Positions 56 to 17,413 of a DNA stretch of 64,000 nucleotides are shown one piece after another (the first letter of the stretch is position 1; every line of letters begins with the position of its first letter). A program made the translations under genes and the position numbers. Source of the DNA: a virus; IMG/VR virus record IMGVR_UViG_3300022213_000237, positions 1 through 64,000 of that record; one strand, written 5' to 3'. Below the pieces are notes generated by a model. The model made no database searches. It worked only from the letters and a program-made list of their open reading frames with translations, and was not told where the DNA came from.

Positions 56-2512
56 ATGGAATCGCTACCTCCTGAAGATATTCAGCTGCATAAATCCTTA
101 AAAGGATACACCTTCGGTGAGCCACAACACGAGCCTGAGCTGGGCAGATACACAGTAAAGGCGTATTACGGAAATAATCGAGTAGGAGAGCTGTCATATG
201 CCGACAAGCCACACACTCTTGATTCCAAGCACCCACACGTAGGCTACCATTTAATTAAGGGCGCCGACGTACATCCATCGCATCGCGGCAATGGAGTGTA
301 TGGGCGATTGCTGCAAATCGCCGCCCTTCACGCCAAAAAGACTTTAAAATCTAAAGGTCTAGTTTCTCCCGGAAAATGGCGCTCGGAAGCCGCTGATGGT
401 GCCTGGGAGCGCTTGGCCAGTAAAGGTAAGGCTCGAGGAGTTGCTGGCTATGGTGACCCCGAGACCAAAGACTTTTTTATGTCCGAGGGACCTAGAGTCC
501 TTGGTTCAGGCGAGCTTAGACGCCTAGGTTATTACAACTCTCCTCATGGAGTCTTTCTGTCTGTGCCTATTAATCAGATTCATGGCTTAGATCCAGAACC
601 AAAGGATTGGGTAGACGATAAAGGCGCGGTGCAATCGTTTCAGGCCGGTAATGCTATTAAAACACCTATCGAGCTTCACGTACACCCTTCAGGTGGGTTC
701 ACCCTTTATGACGGCAACCATCGCTTAAAGCAGGCCCGTACTAATGGGCAGACCCATATCTCCGCCTTAGTGCATGACAAATCAAACAATTACGTCGCTT
801 TAAGCCAACAATATCAGCCGGCCCATCTTTTAAAGTCAGAAATGGCGAAGCATGATGGAACCGCCTTGGAACAGATGGGATATCAATTTAAGGTTTCCCA
901 CCTGAAAGATCGGACTGGAAATATTCACAATACTACTGTCAGCGTTACTCATCCCGATGCTTATAAGCTTCACGGCGATGATAAGGTAGGAGCAGTCGAT
1001 TTTGGTCATCATGGTGACAGTTTAGTAGCGGATCAAGTTTGGGTTCACGATGACCATCGAAACCAGGGCATTGCCAGACACATGTATCGTCTTGCGGCCC
1101 AAGCCACCGGTAAAGATATTAAGCCTTCGGAAACTCAAACACAAGCCGGATCTAATTTTTGGCTTCATAAAGGAGAAGAAACCTCTCCAGATAACATTCA
1201 ACACGAATGGGATATTGAGTTCAAACGCTGGCTGAAATCACGCCGTGAAGGTCGTAGCTATGTCCAATTTCATATGGACGTACATAAGGCTGAACAAGGT
1301 CTTAATAGCCTGCTGGGACGCGGCAATCTAAAAGATGCTCCATCGCCTAGTCACCACGATGTGGCTATGGCCATGAATGGATATGACCCCGAAAGCTCAC
1401 CCGAATTCGTGGCCGCCAGATTCCTGGCGGGTGGAAGTTTTGCGTCCGAAGAAGCAGTTCGCACCGCCATTATTCTCTATGACGATGATTTCGAGCTTGC
1501 GGCCCTCCGTACCTACGGCCTGCCCAGAAACGAGCACTATAGGGAATTGCTGCGTAATGCTATGGGACTCATGGGGCATTTGTCAAATGACGTCAAGAAA
1601 TCAGAAATCGACCCGGTAGCTATTCCGAGAGATATTCGAGCCGCTCTTCCTGAGGGGGAGAAACTTGCTGAAGTTGTGCGCAAAGCCCAGGTAGCTGGTA
1701 AAATACATGCGATCCAACTAGACCCCTCCGCTAAACACTCAAAAGGCACAGCCCTTGTTACCGACGTCGATACAGACGAAAAGTGGTTACTCAAGCCCGG
1801 AAGCGGGAAGTTAAGTCCTTCAGCTGGTGTTGCGGATGAGACTGCAGACCAATCGAATCGTGAAGTAGCTTTTACTAAAATTGCTGACGCCGTTGGGATG
1901 GGTCAATACTATCCAGAAGCGGAATTACTTATGATTGACGGCCAGCCCGTGGCATGTCTCAAATTGTTAGATACCGACTATAAAGGCATGGAGAAATTGC
2001 GTCAGGCTGACTCTGACTTCAAGGCCGCAGAATTTTTCAAGCCGTATCTTGAGAATGGAATCCTGTATCGTTGGGCACTTATTGACGGTGTATTAGGAAA
2101 CAGCGACCGACACGCCAACAATTTGATGGTCAATGAAGACGGCAACGACGTGAAGCTCATCGACCACGGCAGCGCCTTCGCGGGAATTCATTTTGACCCT
2201 GCTCACGACACCAAAAGCTTTATTCCGTTTTACTTGCGGGCCTGGAGTGAGGGTCAGCGTTGGAGCAAGATGTATCCTCAACAAAAAGAGGATGCGGTCC
2301 CACGGCTCAACGAGCAACAAGCTAAGGAGTTCGGTGAATGGGTTGATACCATCGACGAGAACCAACTCAAAGAAATCATGGTCAAGTATGGGTTGAATCC
2401 TAAGCCGGTTCTCGACCGTTTACAACGTATTAAAAGTGCTGATGTTTCTCGGCGCGCGGACGTGCTCATAGGCATGTGGGTTGGCGTCTACGATTGGTCC
2501 GCCTTGACCTAA
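56..2512 (+). CDS. virion-associated polyprotein: GNAT + ParB-like + GNAT + HipA/PI3K-like kinase
   Basis: 818 residues with several enzyme-like modules in order. Residues about 60-100 hold a GNAT acetyltransferase CoA loop (HRGNGVYGRLL, 76-86). Residues about 170-240 resemble a ParB/sulfiredoxin-like domain (LYDGNHRLKQA, 218-227). Residues about 320-350 hold a second GNAT loop (HRNQGIARHMY). Residues about 545-800 look like a PI3K/HipA-type kinase, with catalytic GNSDRHANNLM near 680 followed by VKLIDHGSAF as the metal-binding segment. K-S-E tripeptides at about 260 and 516 fall between modules. It heads the structural gene block, so it may be packaged and ejected with the DNA to modify host proteins. 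The motifs are seen; the virion location and targets are inferred. Start ATG follows the TAATCTT element directly. Confidence 0.75.
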   Translation: MESLPPEDIQLHKSLKGYTFGEPQHEPELGRYTVKAYYGNNRVGELSYADKPHTLDSKHPHVGYHLIKGADVHPSHRGNGVYGRLLQIAALHAKKTLKSKGLVSPGKWRSEAADGAWERLASKGKARGVAGYGDPETKDFFMSEGPRVLGSGELRRLGYYNSPHGVFLSVPINQIHGLDPEPKDWVDDKGAVQSFQAGNAIKTPIELHVHPSGGFTLYDGNHRLKQARTNGQTHISALVHDKSNNYVALSQQYQPAHLLKSEMAKHDGTALEQMGYQFKVSHLKDRTGNIHNTTVSVTHPDAYKLHGDDKVGAVDFGHHGDSLVADQVWVHDDHRNQGIARHMYRLAAQATGKDIKPSETQTQAGSNFWLHKGEETSPDNIQHEWDIEFKRWLKSRREGRSYVQFHMDVHKAEQGLNSLLGRGNLKDAPSPSHHDVAMAMNGYDPESSPEFVAARFLAGGSFASEEAVRTAIILYDDDFELAALRTYGLPRNEHYRELLRNAMGLMGHLSNDVKKSEIDPVAIPRDIRAALPEGEKLAEVVRKAQVAGKIHAIQLDPSAKHSKGTALVTDVDTDEKWLLKPGSGKLSPSAGVADETADQSNREVAFTKIADAVGMGQYYPEAELLMIDGQPVACLKLLDTDYKGMEKLRQADSDFKAAEFFKPYLENGILYRWALIDGVLGNSDRHANNLMVNEDGNDVKLIDHGSAFAGIHFDPAHDTKSFIPFYLRAWSEGQRWSKMYPQQKEDAVPRLNEQQAKEFGEWVDTIDENQLKEIMVKYGLNPKPVLDRLQRIKSADVSRRADVLIGMWVGVYDWSALT

Positions 2513-2832: not shown

Positions 2833-3651
2833 GTGTCTAAGGGGCCATCAAATCCAATAAACATGACATTCAATCCGGATGTCGTGCACTTCGACCCCGA
2901 AGCCTTTGACCGGCTACTTTCCGGCAATGGTGTGGTGTTGGTGCATTGGAAGGCGATTAAGTGTCCTATCGGCATAATTGATCGTTTTGATGCCCGTAAT
3001 CACTCCGACCATGACTGCTCCAACGGATTTATTTACCGTGTGGCTGGTGAAGTCACGGCATTCTTTTCATCCAATAGTAGTAACACAAAATTAGATGAAA
3101 TGGGGTTTGTCACCGGGTCCACGAGTATGGTTTCGTTGCCCCGTACATACGATAACTCCGAAGAAGAGATAGCGGTCCAGCATTTCGACAGATTTTATTT
3201 AAAAGAGTTTAAGGGGTTTTCTGTCAATTCACAGCTTATCGAAGCAAGTATCACCGGCCTCGACCGCCTCACTTACCAGGCGACTAAAATCGAACACATT
3301 GTGGACCGAAACAATATCTGGTACTCGGCCAACGACTACGTTATTGAAAACGGTGGGGTACGGTGGACGGGCTCGCGTCGTCCACAATACGATCCGGCAA
3401 CAAATACTGGGACCGTGTATTCGATTCGATATCGTTATGTTCCGTTCTGGTACGTAGACAATATCGTCCACGAAGTGAGAGTCGCTAGAGTCTATAATCA
3501 CGCTAAAGAACAAGAAGAGGTTGTACGTCTTCCTTATGCTATTCTCTTACAGCGAGAATACATTTTCGAAAACGAAGAGCGTAAAATGGATGGCACTTCG
3601 GATCCTCGCGACGTACGCGCCCCCAGAACAGGTTCATTTGGTCCACGTTAA
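2833..3651 (+). CDS. putative head-neck structural protein
   Basis: 272 residues from a GTG start two bases after the preceding stop. An ATG at 2863 is an alternative, and upstream in-frame starts would overlap the previous gene. It is soluble and rich in aromatics and charged residues, with long beta-type stretches (RYRYVPFWYVDNIVHEVRVARV) and a basic tail (RAPRTGSFGPR). It shares an overlapping TAATG with the next gene. Position in the head/neck block suggests a connector or neck role; no family motif was recognised. Confidence 0.7.
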   Translation: MSKGPSNPINMTFNPDVVHFDPEAFDRLLSGNGVVLVHWKAIKCPIGIIDRFDARNHSDHDCSNGFIYRVAGEVTAFFSSNSSNTKLDEMGFVTGSTSMVSLPRTYDNSEEEIAVQHFDRFYLKEFKGFSVNSQLIEASITGLDRLTYQATKIEHIVDRNNIWYSANDYVIENGGVRWTGSRRPQYDPATNTGTVYSIRYRYVPFWYVDNIVHEVRVARVYNHAKEQEEVVRLPYAILLQREYIFENEERKMDGTSDPRDVRAPRTGSFGPR

Positions 3652-4436
3652 TGTCCTCTCCAGCTTCCATATCTTTTCTGAAGTATGTACTCGGTGACGA
3701 CGGCCACAAGGCTTTCGAGAACGCCAACCACCGATTACCTACTCTTGGCGCCGCGCTAGCACCTAGGACAGTAATTAGCTGGTTGAATACGGCTGTGATG
3801 TCCACTTATGAGGGCGAAATTCCCGGCCTGACCAATAGTTATATCACACTCAACAAGAGTGAGGACGGAACCTTTAGTGGGGCCATTACCGTTGATGATT
3901 CAGTACATTCTTTTACTTCGGCTGACCTGCTTCATGTAGCTGCCGCAGTGACTCTGTCTTTGGGTTTGGGTGATTTACAAATAGACCCGCAAGTTAAATC
4001 CACGGACATAAGCAAACTGGGCAAATCCATCGATATGCTCGTGAAGGCTCGCATCGTGGCCCGAACCGTATTTGAGACCCTTAAGAAGCCGATGGAAAAA
4101 GTCGAGACTCCAGGCTCTGCCGCAGCACCGAAAGAACCTAAGGGCTTTCAAGCTCCTCAGCCACCAACTTCGGTTACGCCCAATACGAATCAAACTGTAA
4201 AGCCACCGATGGTGAAGAAAGAATTGATTATCAAGAAGAGTGAGGCTCATCACGAGTGCCCCGAATGCGGGCTTCGTCAATTCAGAAACGATCGTTTTGT
4301 TGGGTGCCTGTGTTTGCGTTTTTTATCTAAAAATACTACCTCCATAGTGACTCCAGACGGCGACTACAGACTTAAATTGGGTCGTGAATGGGATCAAGAG
4401 TCGGTGGTAATACTAATGGATTCTCTGAGGAAATAA
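3651..4436 (+). CDS. hypothetical virion-region protein with C-terminal zinc ribbon
   Basis: 261 residues. The N-terminal half is helical and carries one K-S-E (near 66). Residues about 150-185 form a proline-rich linker. A second K-S-E (near 201) comes immediately before a zinc-ribbon-like unit with CPECG and, further on, CLC. The placement of K-S-E at the linker/zinc-ribbon border fits a processing site (inference). The start overlaps the previous stop (TAATG). Confidence 0.7.
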   Translation: MSSPASISFLKYVLGDDGHKAFENANHRLPTLGAALAPRTVISWLNTAVMSTYEGEIPGLTNSYITLNKSEDGTFSGAITVDDSVHSFTSADLLHVAAAVTLSLGLGDLQIDPQVKSTDISKLGKSIDMLVKARIVARTVFETLKKPMEKVETPGSAAAPKEPKGFQAPQPPTSVTPNTNQTVKPPMVKKELIIKKSEAHHECPECGLRQFRNDRFVGCLCLRFLSKNTTSIVTPDGDYRLKLGREWDQESVVILMDSLRK

Positions 4437-5146: not shown

Positions 5147-6988
5147 ATGAAAGTCTTTGTTTCCTGGAGTGTCGACCAAATCGAGGGCCTCATTGCCACG
5201 TCGTTGATGAGCGATAACGTTGAAGAACTTCGTCAATTATCGCAAGACCTTAAGCACGCCGCCGATAATCTAAAAGCTTGGTCCATGGCTGTTGGCGGAG
5301 CCCCCATTCTTGACCTTGGTACTTCGGGTGCTGTGGAGGTCCCAGCAGATAGAATGACAGAGTTGCCTGCAATTGCTGAGAAATTTGCTGCCGGCGCAGA
5401 TGCCACACTGTCTGTGGGTGTGGGCATGACGCTGTCCGAAAGTTATACGGCCATGCGTTTTAGTCACCTCAAGGGCGGTGACCAGATTTCTTTGTATCAA
5501 CAGGAAATGGAGCATTTTGTCTCTGGTGCAGATCAGCAATCTGAAGACCCACTCATGGAGTTGGGTAAGTCAGGAAAAGAAGGACAAGAACAACCAGTCG
5601 GTTTTGCTGACGGCCCCGAGGACGAAGCGCCAGGCGACGGTGGACCACAACACGGCGGCGCCAATCCGGCTGAAGGTAATTCCCCTGTCGGTTCTGTACC
5701 AGATGATTCCGCAGATCCAGGCAGCGTCTCCTTTGACCCCGGTTCGCAAGATGCTGCCAATGGCGGCGAAGAACAACCCGGCGAGCAATCCGGCGACCCG
5801 CGCGGCGCCGTGGTGCAGGCGTTACAACAAATCAAAGCCCAGGCCCCAGTTCTCGAGCAAATGCGACAAACTAATCCCGACGCTTTTGAGGCGGTAAAGG
5901 CTGTTGTGGATGCTATGATTGCCATGGCTCAGGGCATGGCGATGGAAGACAATTCTGACGAAGGCGAAGATACAGCTAAGTCGGAATCCATCGGTAAACT
6001 TCCACAAGACCTCGAAGACGATATGTCTCTTCTTGGTGACGAGAAAGCGTGGATGAAGGCGGTTACCACACCGGGAGCCAAGGTAAAGCATGAGCATCTT
6101 GGTTTCGTCGGAACTTTAGTTCGGCCCGCAAAGAATCCAATTAACGGAACCGGTGCAGACCACATGGGGCTAGTCGAGCACGATCTCGGTGGCCAGAAAG
6201 TCCAGCGCTGGTACCCTGCCACGCATTTGAGTCCGCATAGCGATTTAGAGGTTGCGAAGTCTGAAACCTATTATTCGGACGGCGGGCCTCCCGTAACTTT
6301 AGGTAAAACAGATTTACCGGGTGGAGCAGCAGCACCAAAAGCGGCGGCAATGCCAAGCGCTCCACAACCCAGCAAGGCTGCCGCACTTCCTAAAATGGGA
6401 GCCACGGGTGCGCCCCAACTTCACGACAGTGTCGAAGGTTTTATGGGCGGACTGAAGGCCATTCCAAAAGAAAATACGGCTGCACGCGGCAAGTTTTTGA
6501 CCGCACACGCCAACCACGCTCCGTTCCAGACAGCTTTAAGTGCACACCCTCAAGGCGCCCAGGTTCGTGGTATGATGGACAAATTTCTTAACTCCAAAGC
6601 CAATGCGGGCGTGAAGCCAGGAGCGACAGTAACTACGGCTAAAAGTGAATTTGCTAAGGATTTGATGCCAGGGGGAAAGGGAGATAATCTACCTGATTCT
6701 GATTTTGACCCTAAAGACCTTAAAACAGGTCAAGATAAAGAAGAATCTGAACACGGCTTAGACCCTAAAAGAGCTAAAGAAGTCGCTAAAGACCATCTTG
6801 TTGAAAAACCCGACACTTATAAGCAAGAGTGGGCTGTCGGTACACAAAAAGAAGGCAAGATTAAAGTCGAAACCCATGACCCAGTTACTGGCGCCAGCAC
6901 CGGAAAAAAATGGAGATCTGTTCGTGCCGGACAAATAATGGCTGAGGACGGCTCTGCTGTTTCTAGCCGAAATCCTGGGGTTAAATAA
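5147..6988 (+). CDS. acidic multidomain virion protein with possible inactive GGDEF-like N-terminal fold
   Basis: 613 residues. Residues 1-130 show a pattern like a nucleotide-cyclase/GGDEF fold: an N-terminal strand, then ILDLGTSGAVEVPADRM where the GGDEF hairpin would be, then LSVGVGMTLSESYTAMRFSHLKGGDQISLY like the GGDEF C-terminal end. The catalytic acids are not preserved, so it would be non-enzymatic. Residues 145-230 are disordered (Pro/Gly/Asp/Glu). A small beta domain lies about 300-365. The C-terminal region is rich in Lys, Pro and Gly. Three A-K-S-E sites (near 281, 367 and 502) sit at domain edges. A scaffolding, prohead-core or internal virion protein is plausible. The fold call is inference and needs structure prediction. 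Confidence 0.65.
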   Translation: MKVFVSWSVDQIEGLIATSLMSDNVEELRQLSQDLKHAADNLKAWSMAVGGAPILDLGTSGAVEVPADRMTELPAIAEKFAAGADATLSVGVGMTLSESYTAMRFSHLKGGDQISLYQQEMEHFVSGADQQSEDPLMELGKSGKEGQEQPVGFADGPEDEAPGDGGPQHGGANPAEGNSPVGSVPDDSADPGSVSFDPGSQDAANGGEEQPGEQSGDPRGAVVQALQQIKAQAPVLEQMRQTNPDAFEAVKAVVDAMIAMAQGMAMEDNSDEGEDTAKSESIGKLPQDLEDDMSLLGDEKAWMKAVTTPGAKVKHEHLGFVGTLVRPAKNPINGTGADHMGLVEHDLGGQKVQRWYPATHLSPHSDLEVAKSETYYSDGGPPVTLGKTDLPGGAAAPKAAAMPSAPQPSKAAALPKMGATGAPQLHDSVEGFMGGLKAIPKENTAARGKFLTAHANHAPFQTALSAHPQGAQVRGMMDKFLNSKANAGVKPGATVTTAKSEFAKDLMPGGKGDNLPDSDFDPKDLKTGQDKEESEHGLDPKRAKEVAKDHLVEKPDTYKQEWAVGTQKEGKIKVETHDPVTGASTGKKWRSVRAGQIMAEDGSAVSSRNPGVK

Positions 6989-9668: not shown

Positions 9669-11432
9669 ATGTCTGATATCAAGACCCCAGCCGATGTAGC
9701 CGCCGAGTTAACAAAAGCACTTGGCGAGAAGATCGACACCTTGAAGAAAATGGAACTTCCCCAGTCGCCCGAAAAGGCTGATGGCGGTCAAGAATCATCG
9801 GGTTCAATCCCCGCCATGCCTAAACAAGCAGGCGGAACCACTGATGCCGAAATGGCGAAAGATGAAGTCGTTTCTGTGAAAAGGGCAGAATGCCCTGGTT
9901 GTGGCAAGAAATCTGCCCAAGAGCATGAAGGTGTCTCTGGACGCAAGATGGTAGCCATTTGCGGTAATTGCAAGAAGCGAAACGTCGGCAACGTAAAAAA
10001 GATGGACCTTCCTGCGTCGCCAGAAGCGGCTACCGGCGGCGAGATCGCAAAGAAATCAGAACTCGACGCTCTAGATTTTGCCCAGGCGCTCAGCAAAGCC
10101 GTGGTGGAAAAAATCGCGGGCGTGCGCGAACAACTTGAGAAAATGGAGCGACTCGAAGCCGCAGGTAACGAGGATTTAGCTAAAGGTCTTAAGTCCAAGG
10201 GCGTCAAAAAGAATATTGGGTCACTGCCCAGCAATACGCCATCGAATAAGCAAATTGCGGATGGCGATCCTAACAAATCGCATCCAATGCCTAAGTCGGT
10301 ATTCGATATCATGAATAAGGGCGAAGGTAAATTCCTGCCCTGGGCTAAAGGCACTAAGAAGCCAAAAGTAGGAAAAGAAGTAGAAGCTGAAGGCAGTGGC
10401 GGAAGTGATACCACTAAGCCCGGACCTTCACTTCAAAAGGACGCCCTTCCTGTAGCCAAGCCACCGAAGATGCCAGCTCTTAAGCCCGCAGGTGTGCCTG
10501 GCGCCAAAGCTGGTGACGCACCCAAGGCTCCTAAGGCGCCAGGTGCCCCCGGACAGACTGGTAGTACGATGAAAATGGAACTTCCTCAGTCCCCTGAAAA
10601 GGCGGGTGGTGGTGACATGGCAAGTGGCTCTGTGCCCGCTATGCCCAAACAGGCCGGTGGAACCACCGACGCAGAGATGGAAAAAGAGGAGATGTCTCCG
10701 GAAGAAACCAACATCGCCGAAGAATCGTCTGCAGAAGAAACACATATGGGTAAGGATGAATTGCCCCAAACTCCTGAAAAAGCGATTGGCGGTCAAGAGT
10801 CTTCTGGATCTATTCCCGCTATGCCTAAACAAGCAGGAGGAGCTACTGACGCGGAGATGAAGAAGAACGCTTTGCCTCCCAATCACGCAAGTCCCGTATT
10901 TGCGGTCCATGCTTCTGTTTTCGGTAATAAAGCCGCACCTGGAGACCCTCACGGCGGCAAATCAGGATACTTAATCACCCAGGCTCTACCTAAACTTAAA
11001 CCTGCGGCTGCGGGTATGCATACCGTGGGTCAAGATGGACCTCCTACGCCGGCACCTGGCGATATGGGTGCTGGTAACAAGACAGTTAACCTTCGTTCGC
11101 CGGTCGGAAAATCCGAAGACATGGCTAAGGGCGTGTTTTCTCAGGCGGCACAACATTCAGACCCTTCTTTTGCGTCGCATGCGGCCAGCAAAGCTGCGGC
11201 AGCGCCAGCAGCAAAACCTGCACCCATGGGTGGGCCGAACGATGCCCGCGCAGCAGCGTTTTCAGCGGCATTAGCGGGAGAATTTCAACCCAAAGCTCCT
11301 ATTAAGACCGGACTCGAGCTGGCACATCCTAAAGCCGCCAACTTGCCGAAATTCGGCAAAGCTGAACTGGATAGCGTCAAGTGTCCAGGATGTAAGCAAG
11401 GCATGACCCTTTGTAAGTGTGGATCCAAGTAA
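9669..11432 (+). CDS. repeat-containing low-complexity virion protein with zinc-ribbon motifs
   Basis: 587 residues, Pro/Ala/Lys-rich and probably mostly disordered. A unit of about 33 residues (ELPQSPEKA-GG...SGSIPAMPKQAGGTTDAEM) occurs three times near residues 28, 303 and 364, with a fourth degenerate start near 115 (MDLPASPEAATGG). A CPGCGKK...CGNCKK pair (about 77-107) and a C-terminal CPGCKQGMTLCKC are likely metal sites. K-S-E tripeptides occur near 135 and 481. Placed just before the sheath; possibly a scaffold, internal head protein or proteolytically matured component. No enzyme motif seen. Confidence 0.7.
   Translation: MSDIKTPADVAAELTKALGEKIDTLKKMELPQSPEKADGGQESSGSIPAMPKQAGGTTDAEMAKDEVVSVKRAECPGCGKKSAQEHEGVSGRKMVAICGNCKKRNVGNVKKMDLPASPEAATGGEIAKKSELDALDFAQALSKAVVEKIAGVREQLEKMERLEAAGNEDLAKGLKSKGVKKNIGSLPSNTPSNKQIADGDPNKSHPMPKSVFDIMNKGEGKFLPWAKGTKKPKVGKEVEAEGSGGSDTTKPGPSLQKDALPVAKPPKMPALKPAGVPGAKAGDAPKAPKAPGAPGQTGSTMKMELPQSPEKAGGGDMASGSVPAMPKQAGGTTDAEMEKEEMSPEETNIAEESSAEETHMGKDELPQTPEKAIGGQESSGSIPAMPKQAGGATDAEMKKNALPPNHASPVFAVHASVFGNKAAPGDPHGGKSGYLITQALPKLKPAAAGMHTVGQDGPPTPAPGDMGAGNKTVNLRSPVGKSEDMAKGVFSQAAQHSDPSFASHAASKAAAAPAAKPAPMGGPNDARAAAFSAALAGEFQPKAPIKTGLELAHPKAANLPKFGKAELDSVKCPGCKQGMTLCKCGSK
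9748..10855 (+). repeat. three near-identical units of about 99 bp inside the 9669 gene
   Basis: Units start near 9748, 10574 and 10757 and are in frame. They encode ELPQSPEKA...KQAGGTTDAEM with few substitutions, and several of the differences are silent, which points to old in-frame duplication under selection for the protein sequence. Confidence 0.75.
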
Positions 11433-16724: not shown

Positions 16725-17089
16725 GGGGCTGAATTGGATTCGACGGAGGAGAGTGAAGAGTAGATGCGAGTCGTGGTTGGTCATCGGCCACGTAAAAAGA
16801 AGACCAAAAATAAACGCCAAGTCTAACGACGTGGTTCCTGCGTGGATGATTGCAGCTTCGGCTGCCGGCATCCAAGCCTTCGCCTAATAAGCGAAACAGG
16901 ATGTGGATGGAAGAGGATTCCGAGTATTCCATCTGCATAAACCACACGGAATGTAGTGGAGAATGACTGCCTGTCGACTCTCCACCAAATTTAGGCAGGC
17001 AAACGTCGTACCAGCCTCGGGTAGAGGAAACACTCGTAGTATCTATTTGTAGCATCTTGCGGACCCCGGTTCGATACCGGGCAGCTCCA
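16725..17089 (+). ncRNA. ssrA: transfer-messenger RNA (tmRNA)
   Basis: A full one-piece tmRNA. The 5' end GGGGCTGAATTGGATTCGACGG and the 3' end with T loop GTTCGAT and CAGCTCC form the alanine-type acceptor. The pseudoknot-1 region (GTTGGTCATCGGCCACGTAAAAAG) aligns with that of E. coli tmRNA. AATAAAC then precedes the resume codon GCC at 16816. The reading frame runs 23 codons to a double stop TAATAA at 16885. The tag begins AKSNDVVPAW and ends GIQAFA, longer than the usual 8-15 residues. No CCA is encoded. It would rescue stalled ribosomes, and perhaps reroute host protein during infection (inference). Confidence 0.93.
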
Positions 17090-17413
17090 CTTTTAGGTTC
17101 GCTCAGGGCTTGTCGAAGGGGCGATTAAATCGGACGATAACTCCCTTCCGAGCCATTTGTTTTTGCTGGCTTTGAAAACCAGCTGGTGGAGGCACCTTGA
17201 GTGCCCTTCGTCCCGGCGAAGTAAAATAGTCCTTTAGCCGGGAGCGTTCAGAGCCGGGTGTTCTCACCGGCCTGATGTGGAGATAGTCGGGCATCATGTT
17301 AAATCCATGGTGTGTCTGAATTATCCGCGCACGGTATAATACGGGCCGTGGGCGAACGCCTGATAAGCCACTACGGACGGCTGTGCACAGCTACTGTTCC
17401 TACCGCATTATTT
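17090..17413 (+). other. 324-base gap in the tRNA array with REP-like element and hairpins
   Basis: 17096-17121 (GGTTCGCTCAGGGCTTGTCG and following bases), read on the minus strand, resembles the CTTCGACAAGC-CTGAGCGAAC extragenic repeat found in many bacteria. Further hairpins are GCTGG/CCAGC (17168-17186), GGCAC/GTGCC and CTTCG/CGAAG. A TATAAT box at about 17332 could promote the downstream tRNAs. A TTTGAAA loop recalls tRNA-Ser, but no acceptor or T arm matches it. No protein gene seen. Confidence 0.35.

Follow-up and report, generated by a model that had tools for sequence, protein, structure and literature searches.

What is an 818-residue, multi-enzyme frame doing among the head genes of a large phage, and could its product reach the host together with the DNA? 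The frame opens the window analyzed here, the first 64 kb (64,000 nucleotides) of IMG/VR record IMGVR_UViG_3300022213_000237 (169,567 bp, ∼169.6 kb). The two ends of the record overlap by ∼146 bases with two differences; thus, the genome itself has a circular or permuted map. Among known phages, Myxococcus phage Mx1 (OR576727; 169,621 bp) comes nearest; it is an M. xanthus myophage with a contractile tail (PMC10720576) that is reported to be virulent (PMC6070905). No relatives were retrieved from IMG/VR with the whole 818-residue protein, the major capsid protein (MCP, in two versions), the kinase, the protease, or the portal as the query, or from GTDB with the kinase. A match to a Nodularia phage (E = 0.02) was set aside as too weak. 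All comparisons are therefore between two genomes, the studied phage and Mx1; because only these two carry the motif system described below, there is no third lineage in which to test it. Elsewhere in the window, a complete phage-encoded tmRNA (positions 16725 to 17092; Rfam RF00023, 120.6 bits) lies inside a cluster of ∼13 tRNAs, and a Pistol ribozyme match (17206 to 17282; RF02679, 39.6 bits versus a gathering score of 34.5) falls between the tmRNA and tRNA genes. Promoter and terminator scans gave counts at chance level.

The original prediction described positions 56 to 2512 (plus strand) as a single frame holding GNAT, ParB-like, GNAT, and kinase-like motifs. ORF calling and translation confirmed this frame, which starts at an ATG, is uninterrupted, and contains every quoted motif: HRGNG (residues 76 to 80), DGNHR (219 to 223), HRNQG (334 to 338), DRHANN (684 to 689), and KLIDHG (700 to 705). 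Such a frame is far beyond chance, since Mx1 encodes a syntenic homologue (WNM70334) that aligns with 71% of the protein at 48% identity. The product begins with a Phi-x-K-S sequence (LHKS, K13; positions 86 to 97), a possible propeptide removal site that aligns with LQKA in Mx1. GNAT module 1 follows (residues 14 to 144; positions 95 to 487; HRGNGVYGRLL) and is conserved in Mx1. Next come a ParB/Srx-like module (residues 145 to 259; positions 488 to 832; YDGNHRLKQA), the intermodule motif LLKSE (K260; positions 827 to 841), and GNAT module 2 (residues 261 to 372; positions 836 to 1171; HRNQGIARHMY). A helical segment follows GNAT2, and the chain also holds a variant motif, LHKGE (K372; positions 1163 to 1177), and the intermodule motif VHKAE (K411; positions 1280 to 1294). 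A further intermodule motif, VKKSE (K515; positions 1592 to 1606; LKKGE in Mx1) stands directly before the C-terminal PI3K/HipA-type kinase module (residues 516 to 818; positions 1601 to 2509; LLKPGSGK, GNSDRHANN, and KLIDHG).

Pfam analysis bore out the GNAT and kinase assignments. With the whole protein as the query, Acetyltransf_7 scored 33.9 bits (cutoff, 27) and Acetyltransf_1 scored 29.9 bits (cutoff, 20.7), each over two stretches; the GNAT modules alone fell just under these cutoffs (25.1 versus 27 and 17.7 versus 20.7). The GNAT assignment combines a family match above the cutoff for the whole protein with the R-x-x-G-x-G/A loop. PI3_PI4_kinase (PF00454; cutoff, 27.1) scored 27.7 bits when the C-terminal segment was searched by itself, 25.9 for the full-length chain, and 34.4 in the Mx1 homologue. 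Residues expected of a PI3K/HipA-type kinase are present, namely, DRHANN, the metal-binding aspartate of KLIDHG, and the ATP-binding lysine of LLKPGSG (residues 578 to 584). HipA_C was a weak secondary match (17.4 bits versus a gathering score of 30.5), which does not place the module among HipA toxin kinases. The ParB-like part of the prediction stood less firmly. Pfam gave no match for this segment, and a two-sequence profile built with a similar Mx1 segment matched three ParB structures as its sole PDB hits, all weakly (E = 0.12 to 0.19). The ParB assignment, drawn from motif, layout, and these profile matches, is tentative. Single-sequence AlphaFold2 models were too poor for fold searches (pLDDT of 42 for the kinase and 39 for the ParB-like segment). 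In sum, the chain contains at least two unrelated catalytic or nucleic-acid domains (two GNATs and the kinase by Pfam, the ParB-like module by motif). Curated PolyVal-specific domains were absent from the 818-residue protein, while ART-PolyVal (PF18760) was found in the neighboring polyprotein of Mx1.

The frame had been placed at the start of the virion gene block, which proved incorrect: the block begins ∼25 kb upstream, across the record junction. Read through the junction, the block runs from terminase and portal through a MuF-like protein, a prohead protease with a long C-terminal fusion, a GGDEF-motif protein, and a scaffold-like protein to the MCP, followed by an 841-residue NUDIX/GNAT polyprotein, the 818-residue gene, further virion proteins, and the tail sheath. 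Because this order puts the terminase-to-MCP genes upstream, the 818-residue gene is internal to the head block. It starts ∼12 bases past the stop of the 841-residue gene, and its location between the portal, protease, scaffold, and MCP genes and the tail sheath is the same in both phages. Among these upstream genes, the terminase gene (stretch L010 of the record, positions 3 to 2288) has an apparent homing-endonuclease-like insert, and the MuF-like gene (L010, 5323 to 7323) has an intein-like insert (breakpoints 218/624) that Mx1 does not have.

The original prediction overlooked that the block encodes several such polyproteins, that their modules are separated by a shared protease-like motif, and that modules move between carriers. 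The 841-residue product comprises an N-terminal phrog_12251-like segment, a GNAT (31% identical to GNAT2 of the 818-residue protein), a NUDIX domain, and further modules; its Mx1 counterpart (1,479 residues) additionally has ART-PolyVal (E = 2.8e-16) and a ParB-like segment. The protease gene product (1,362 residues) ends in a second PI3K-like domain (31.0 bits), which shares 31% identity with the kinase of the 818-residue protein. The motif of this fused kinase is intact in the studied phage (DRHQGN, IDNG) and degenerate in Mx1 (DRNDGN, IDNA; L005, 13002 to 16721). The protease itself weakly matched the phrog_1028 head maturation protease (E = 0.003; 1e-4 for Mx1) and SPO1-group prohead proteases (E = 1e-3); hhalign gave no meaningful match to HK97 gp4. 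The GGDEF protein (record positions 156109 to 157335; L010, 12109 to 13335) retains an intact RRGGDEF, also present in Mx1, which suggests that the protein is diguanylate cyclase-like and might enter the cell by injection. Separately, an N-terminal segment of the MCP (residues 14 to 66; gene at L010, 15127 to 16530) resembles the segment following the protease domain (Mx1 residues 242 to 286, E = 1e-5; protease gene at L010, 7534 to 11622), and the two have a KA-x-x-AG-x-F core in common. Downstream of the 818-residue gene, all on the plus strand, are a 103-residue head-block protein with LSKSE (positions 2519 to 2830; conserved in Mx1), a 261-residue head-block protein with LNKSE and IKKSE (3651 to 4436), a 613-residue protein with three K-S-E sites in its middle (5147 to 6988), and a 587-residue presheath protein with three K[SA]E sites and variable modules between conserved stretches (9669 to 11432).

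When all tripeptides were ranked against per-protein shuffles for each phage separately, KSE came first in both head blocks. It occurred 18 times versus 3.0 expected in the studied phage (a single occurrence in the other 38,735 positions) and 16 times versus 2.3 expected in Mx1 (3 in 40,787 positions elsewhere). Across 45 aligned K[SA]E sites, not all of them independent because homologous sites were counted in both phages, a hydrophobic residue lies two positions before the lysine in 76% of cases (24% background, p = 5e-13); the remaining flanking positions are unremarkable. The extended motif [LVIMF]-x-K-[SA]-E (hereafter Phi-x-K-[SA]-E) was found 34 times in the head blocks of both phages versus 2.9 expected, with no enrichment elsewhere (7 versus 10.3). 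It recurs in the scaffold (4 to 5 sites), the portal, the protease, and the enzyme polyproteins, and Phi-x-K-[SA] also occurs near the N termini of the MCP and protease. In six multidomain proteins, 0 of 11 Phi-x-K-[SA]-E sites fell inside Pfam envelopes; the lone KSE within an envelope (Mx1 NUDIX, K955) has no Phi. Common to putative cargo proteins, scaffold, and portal, the motif looks like a candidate protease site, with a consensus read from these alignments. We favor a prohead-protease site because the motif is short, specific, confined to the head block, and repeated in the scaffold, in the portal, and between cargo domains.

Which bond would be cut is a separate matter. By analogy to T4-type phages and SPN3US, whose prohead protease gp245 cuts after glutamate at A-X-E (PMC10052503), we initially read the site as K-[SA]-E/. 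Glutamate is indeed the residue most favored after Phi-x-K-[SA] (34/96). However, substitution scans led us to downgrade this reading: replacing the lysine or Phi abolished the enrichment (0.6× and 1.1×), while placing V, I, L, M, or T where the glutamate stands kept it. Because Phi-x-[not K]-[SA]-E falls below expectation (0.6×) and Phi-x-K-[SA]-[VILMT] is enriched 3.4×, lysine, not glutamate, is the constant residue. Cleavage after glutamate thus appears somewhat unlikely, and the substitution data favor a cut after lysine. In HK97, the cleavage site of the MCP is K103/S104 (PMC10275583), whose sequence, FNK/SL, fits Phi-x-K/[SA]; four of the five Phi-x-K-[SAG] sequences in the HK97 MCP lie in the removed delta domain (three) or at the cut itself.

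Comparison with Mx1 indicates that cassettes have been gained, lost, and moved; the motif is associated with cassette edges. WNM70334 (619 residues) is 47 to 49% identical to the 818-residue protein in GNAT1, the helical segment, and the kinase and does not have the ParB-GNAT2 block (approximately residues 145 to 366). LHKGE marks the right edge of this block (breakpoint 367); the left edge (residue 144) has no full motif. In the protease polyprotein, a 118-residue cassette between K775 (TKAE) and K895 (EKSE) is absent in Mx1. The end module of the 841-residue protein (residues 756 to 832) is found in a different Mx1 protein, WNM70340 (286 to 374), just past IPKAE, and that of the GGDEF protein (252 to 406) is carried by Mx1 WNM70344 (261 to 413). 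Several head-block proteins have conserved ends and middles exchanged between the two phages; in the 613-residue protein, residues 1 to 264 and 554 to 613 are conserved and the middle is replaced. A Phi-x-K-[SA]-E motif is found no more than 12 residues from 8 of 30 homology breakpoints (1.7 expected; 0 of 3,000 random placements reached 8), an association rather than a cause, as motifs and breakpoints are both expected in linkers. Versions of the motif with R, E, or D gave no significant excess in this test.

From the observed frame, its GNAT and kinase domains, the head-gene context, the enrichment and position of the motif, and the cassette gain, loss, and shuffling relative to Mx1, we infer a route from packaging through cleavage to injection that we consider probable. 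The 818-residue protein would be one of several head-cargo polyproteins enclosed in the prohead during head assembly. The prohead protease would cut these at Phi-x-K-[SA]-(E), most likely after lysine as in HK97, and release GNAT1 plus ParB, GNAT2, the helical part, and the PI3K/HipA-type kinase. These pieces would accompany the genome and be injected with the DNA into the myxobacterial host. There, the acetyltransferases and the kinase, if active, may modify proteins of the host as infection begins, and the ParB-like part may act on DNA or nucleotides. There is precedent for a protease-trimmed injected protein in P1 DarA, which is cut by the prohead protease Pro (PMC12810830). A wider formulation proposes an exchangeable cargo system. 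In it, enzyme cassettes bearing the cleavage motif of the head protease itself, Phi-x-K/[SA]-E, would be inserted into several carriers, packed, freed by the maturation protease while still in the head, and then injected together. We regard this formulation as evenly balanced between true and false.

The same motif could instead be a docking peptide, an encapsidation tag that binds scaffold or capsid and is never cut, so that the polyprotein stays whole and is ejected unfolded. Its repetition in the scaffold, its presence in the portal, and its occurrence near the N termini of the MCP and protease are compatible with docking, and the N4 virion RNA polymerase is packaged uncut (PMC5512222). However, one tag per protein would suffice, whereas the sites here separate successive modules and associate with cassette edges, and the motif core matches a real HK97 maturation bond. 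We therefore judge an uncut docking tag unlikely.

Free GNATs and kinases are common in phages, and the 818-residue protein could likewise be an ordinary multidomain enzyme, made late and left unpackaged, that acts on host or virion proteins during assembly. Its position immediately behind another polyprotein in the head block, the head-specific motif, and the same arrangement in Mx1 make this reading distinctly unlikely. That the modules are decayed enzyme folds reused as structural head core proteins is more doubtful still: the protease-fused kinase of Mx1 has lost its DRH histidine, but both GNATs and the kinase of the 818-residue protein keep their motif residues, and DRHxxN and IDHG are identical in WNM70334 despite 50% overall identity.

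The original suggestion of a polyvalent protein delivered with the DNA is supported by the domains, the late head-gene context, and the ART-PolyVal domain of the Mx1 sister protein; delivery itself is a prediction. GNAT, ART, ParB, and kinase domains are already known from polyvalent proteins (Iyer et al. 2017, PMC5512222). Such proteins resemble the 818-residue protein in being multidomain, phage encoded, built from GNAT/ART/ParB-type modules, and predicted to be delivered with DNA, and the authors likened them to viral polyproteins freed by embedded peptidases. In contrast, no release peptidase was found in the 818-residue chain, whose modules are instead separated by a prohead-protease-like motif, an arrangement not described in the passages of that paper considered here. 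The polyvalent kinases there are truncated Ser/Thr/Tyr kinases, and no HipA or PI3K-type kinase is named in the main text. P1 Dar proteins (DarA, DdrB) and T4 Alt are likewise head internal and injected with DNA, whereas injection is predicted from genes here; DarA is known to lose an N-terminal piece when cut, whereas the several sites of the 818-residue protein would release several enzymes. HK97 gp5/gp4 has a cut sequence that fits Phi-x-K/[SA] but differs in that a scaffold domain is cut off the MCP, with no enzyme cargo, and the proteases have no detectable sequence match. Within Mx1, the closest system by synteny, homologue WNM70334 has the same GNAT1/helical/kinase layout and motif-bearing neighbors, but the ParB-like module sits on the 1,479-residue NUDIX/ART polyprotein rather than on the kinase protein. 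Tunturiibacter phage Tunturi_5 ORF205 (L016, 7351 to 9912; 853 residues) combines YunG-like, ART, ParB-like (DGHHR), and same-type GNAT domains (ART annotated, the others read by eye); it lies among replication genes, in contrast to the head-block location here. In a limited literature search, we found no earlier description of motif-separated cassettes tied to a prohead protease.

Because Mx1 can be cultured on Myxococcus xanthus, the prediction is directly checkable by virion proteomics. If it is correct, injected cargo and its cut points would be readable from sequence alone, and each phage would carry several candidate injected effectors (GNATs, kinase, ART, NUDIX, ParB-like, and perhaps GGDEF). 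The motif would then also suggest that heads recruit new effectors through acquisition of the protease tag. Such a system would be the phage equivalent of a viral polyprotein whose host-directed effectors are released as the capsid matures.
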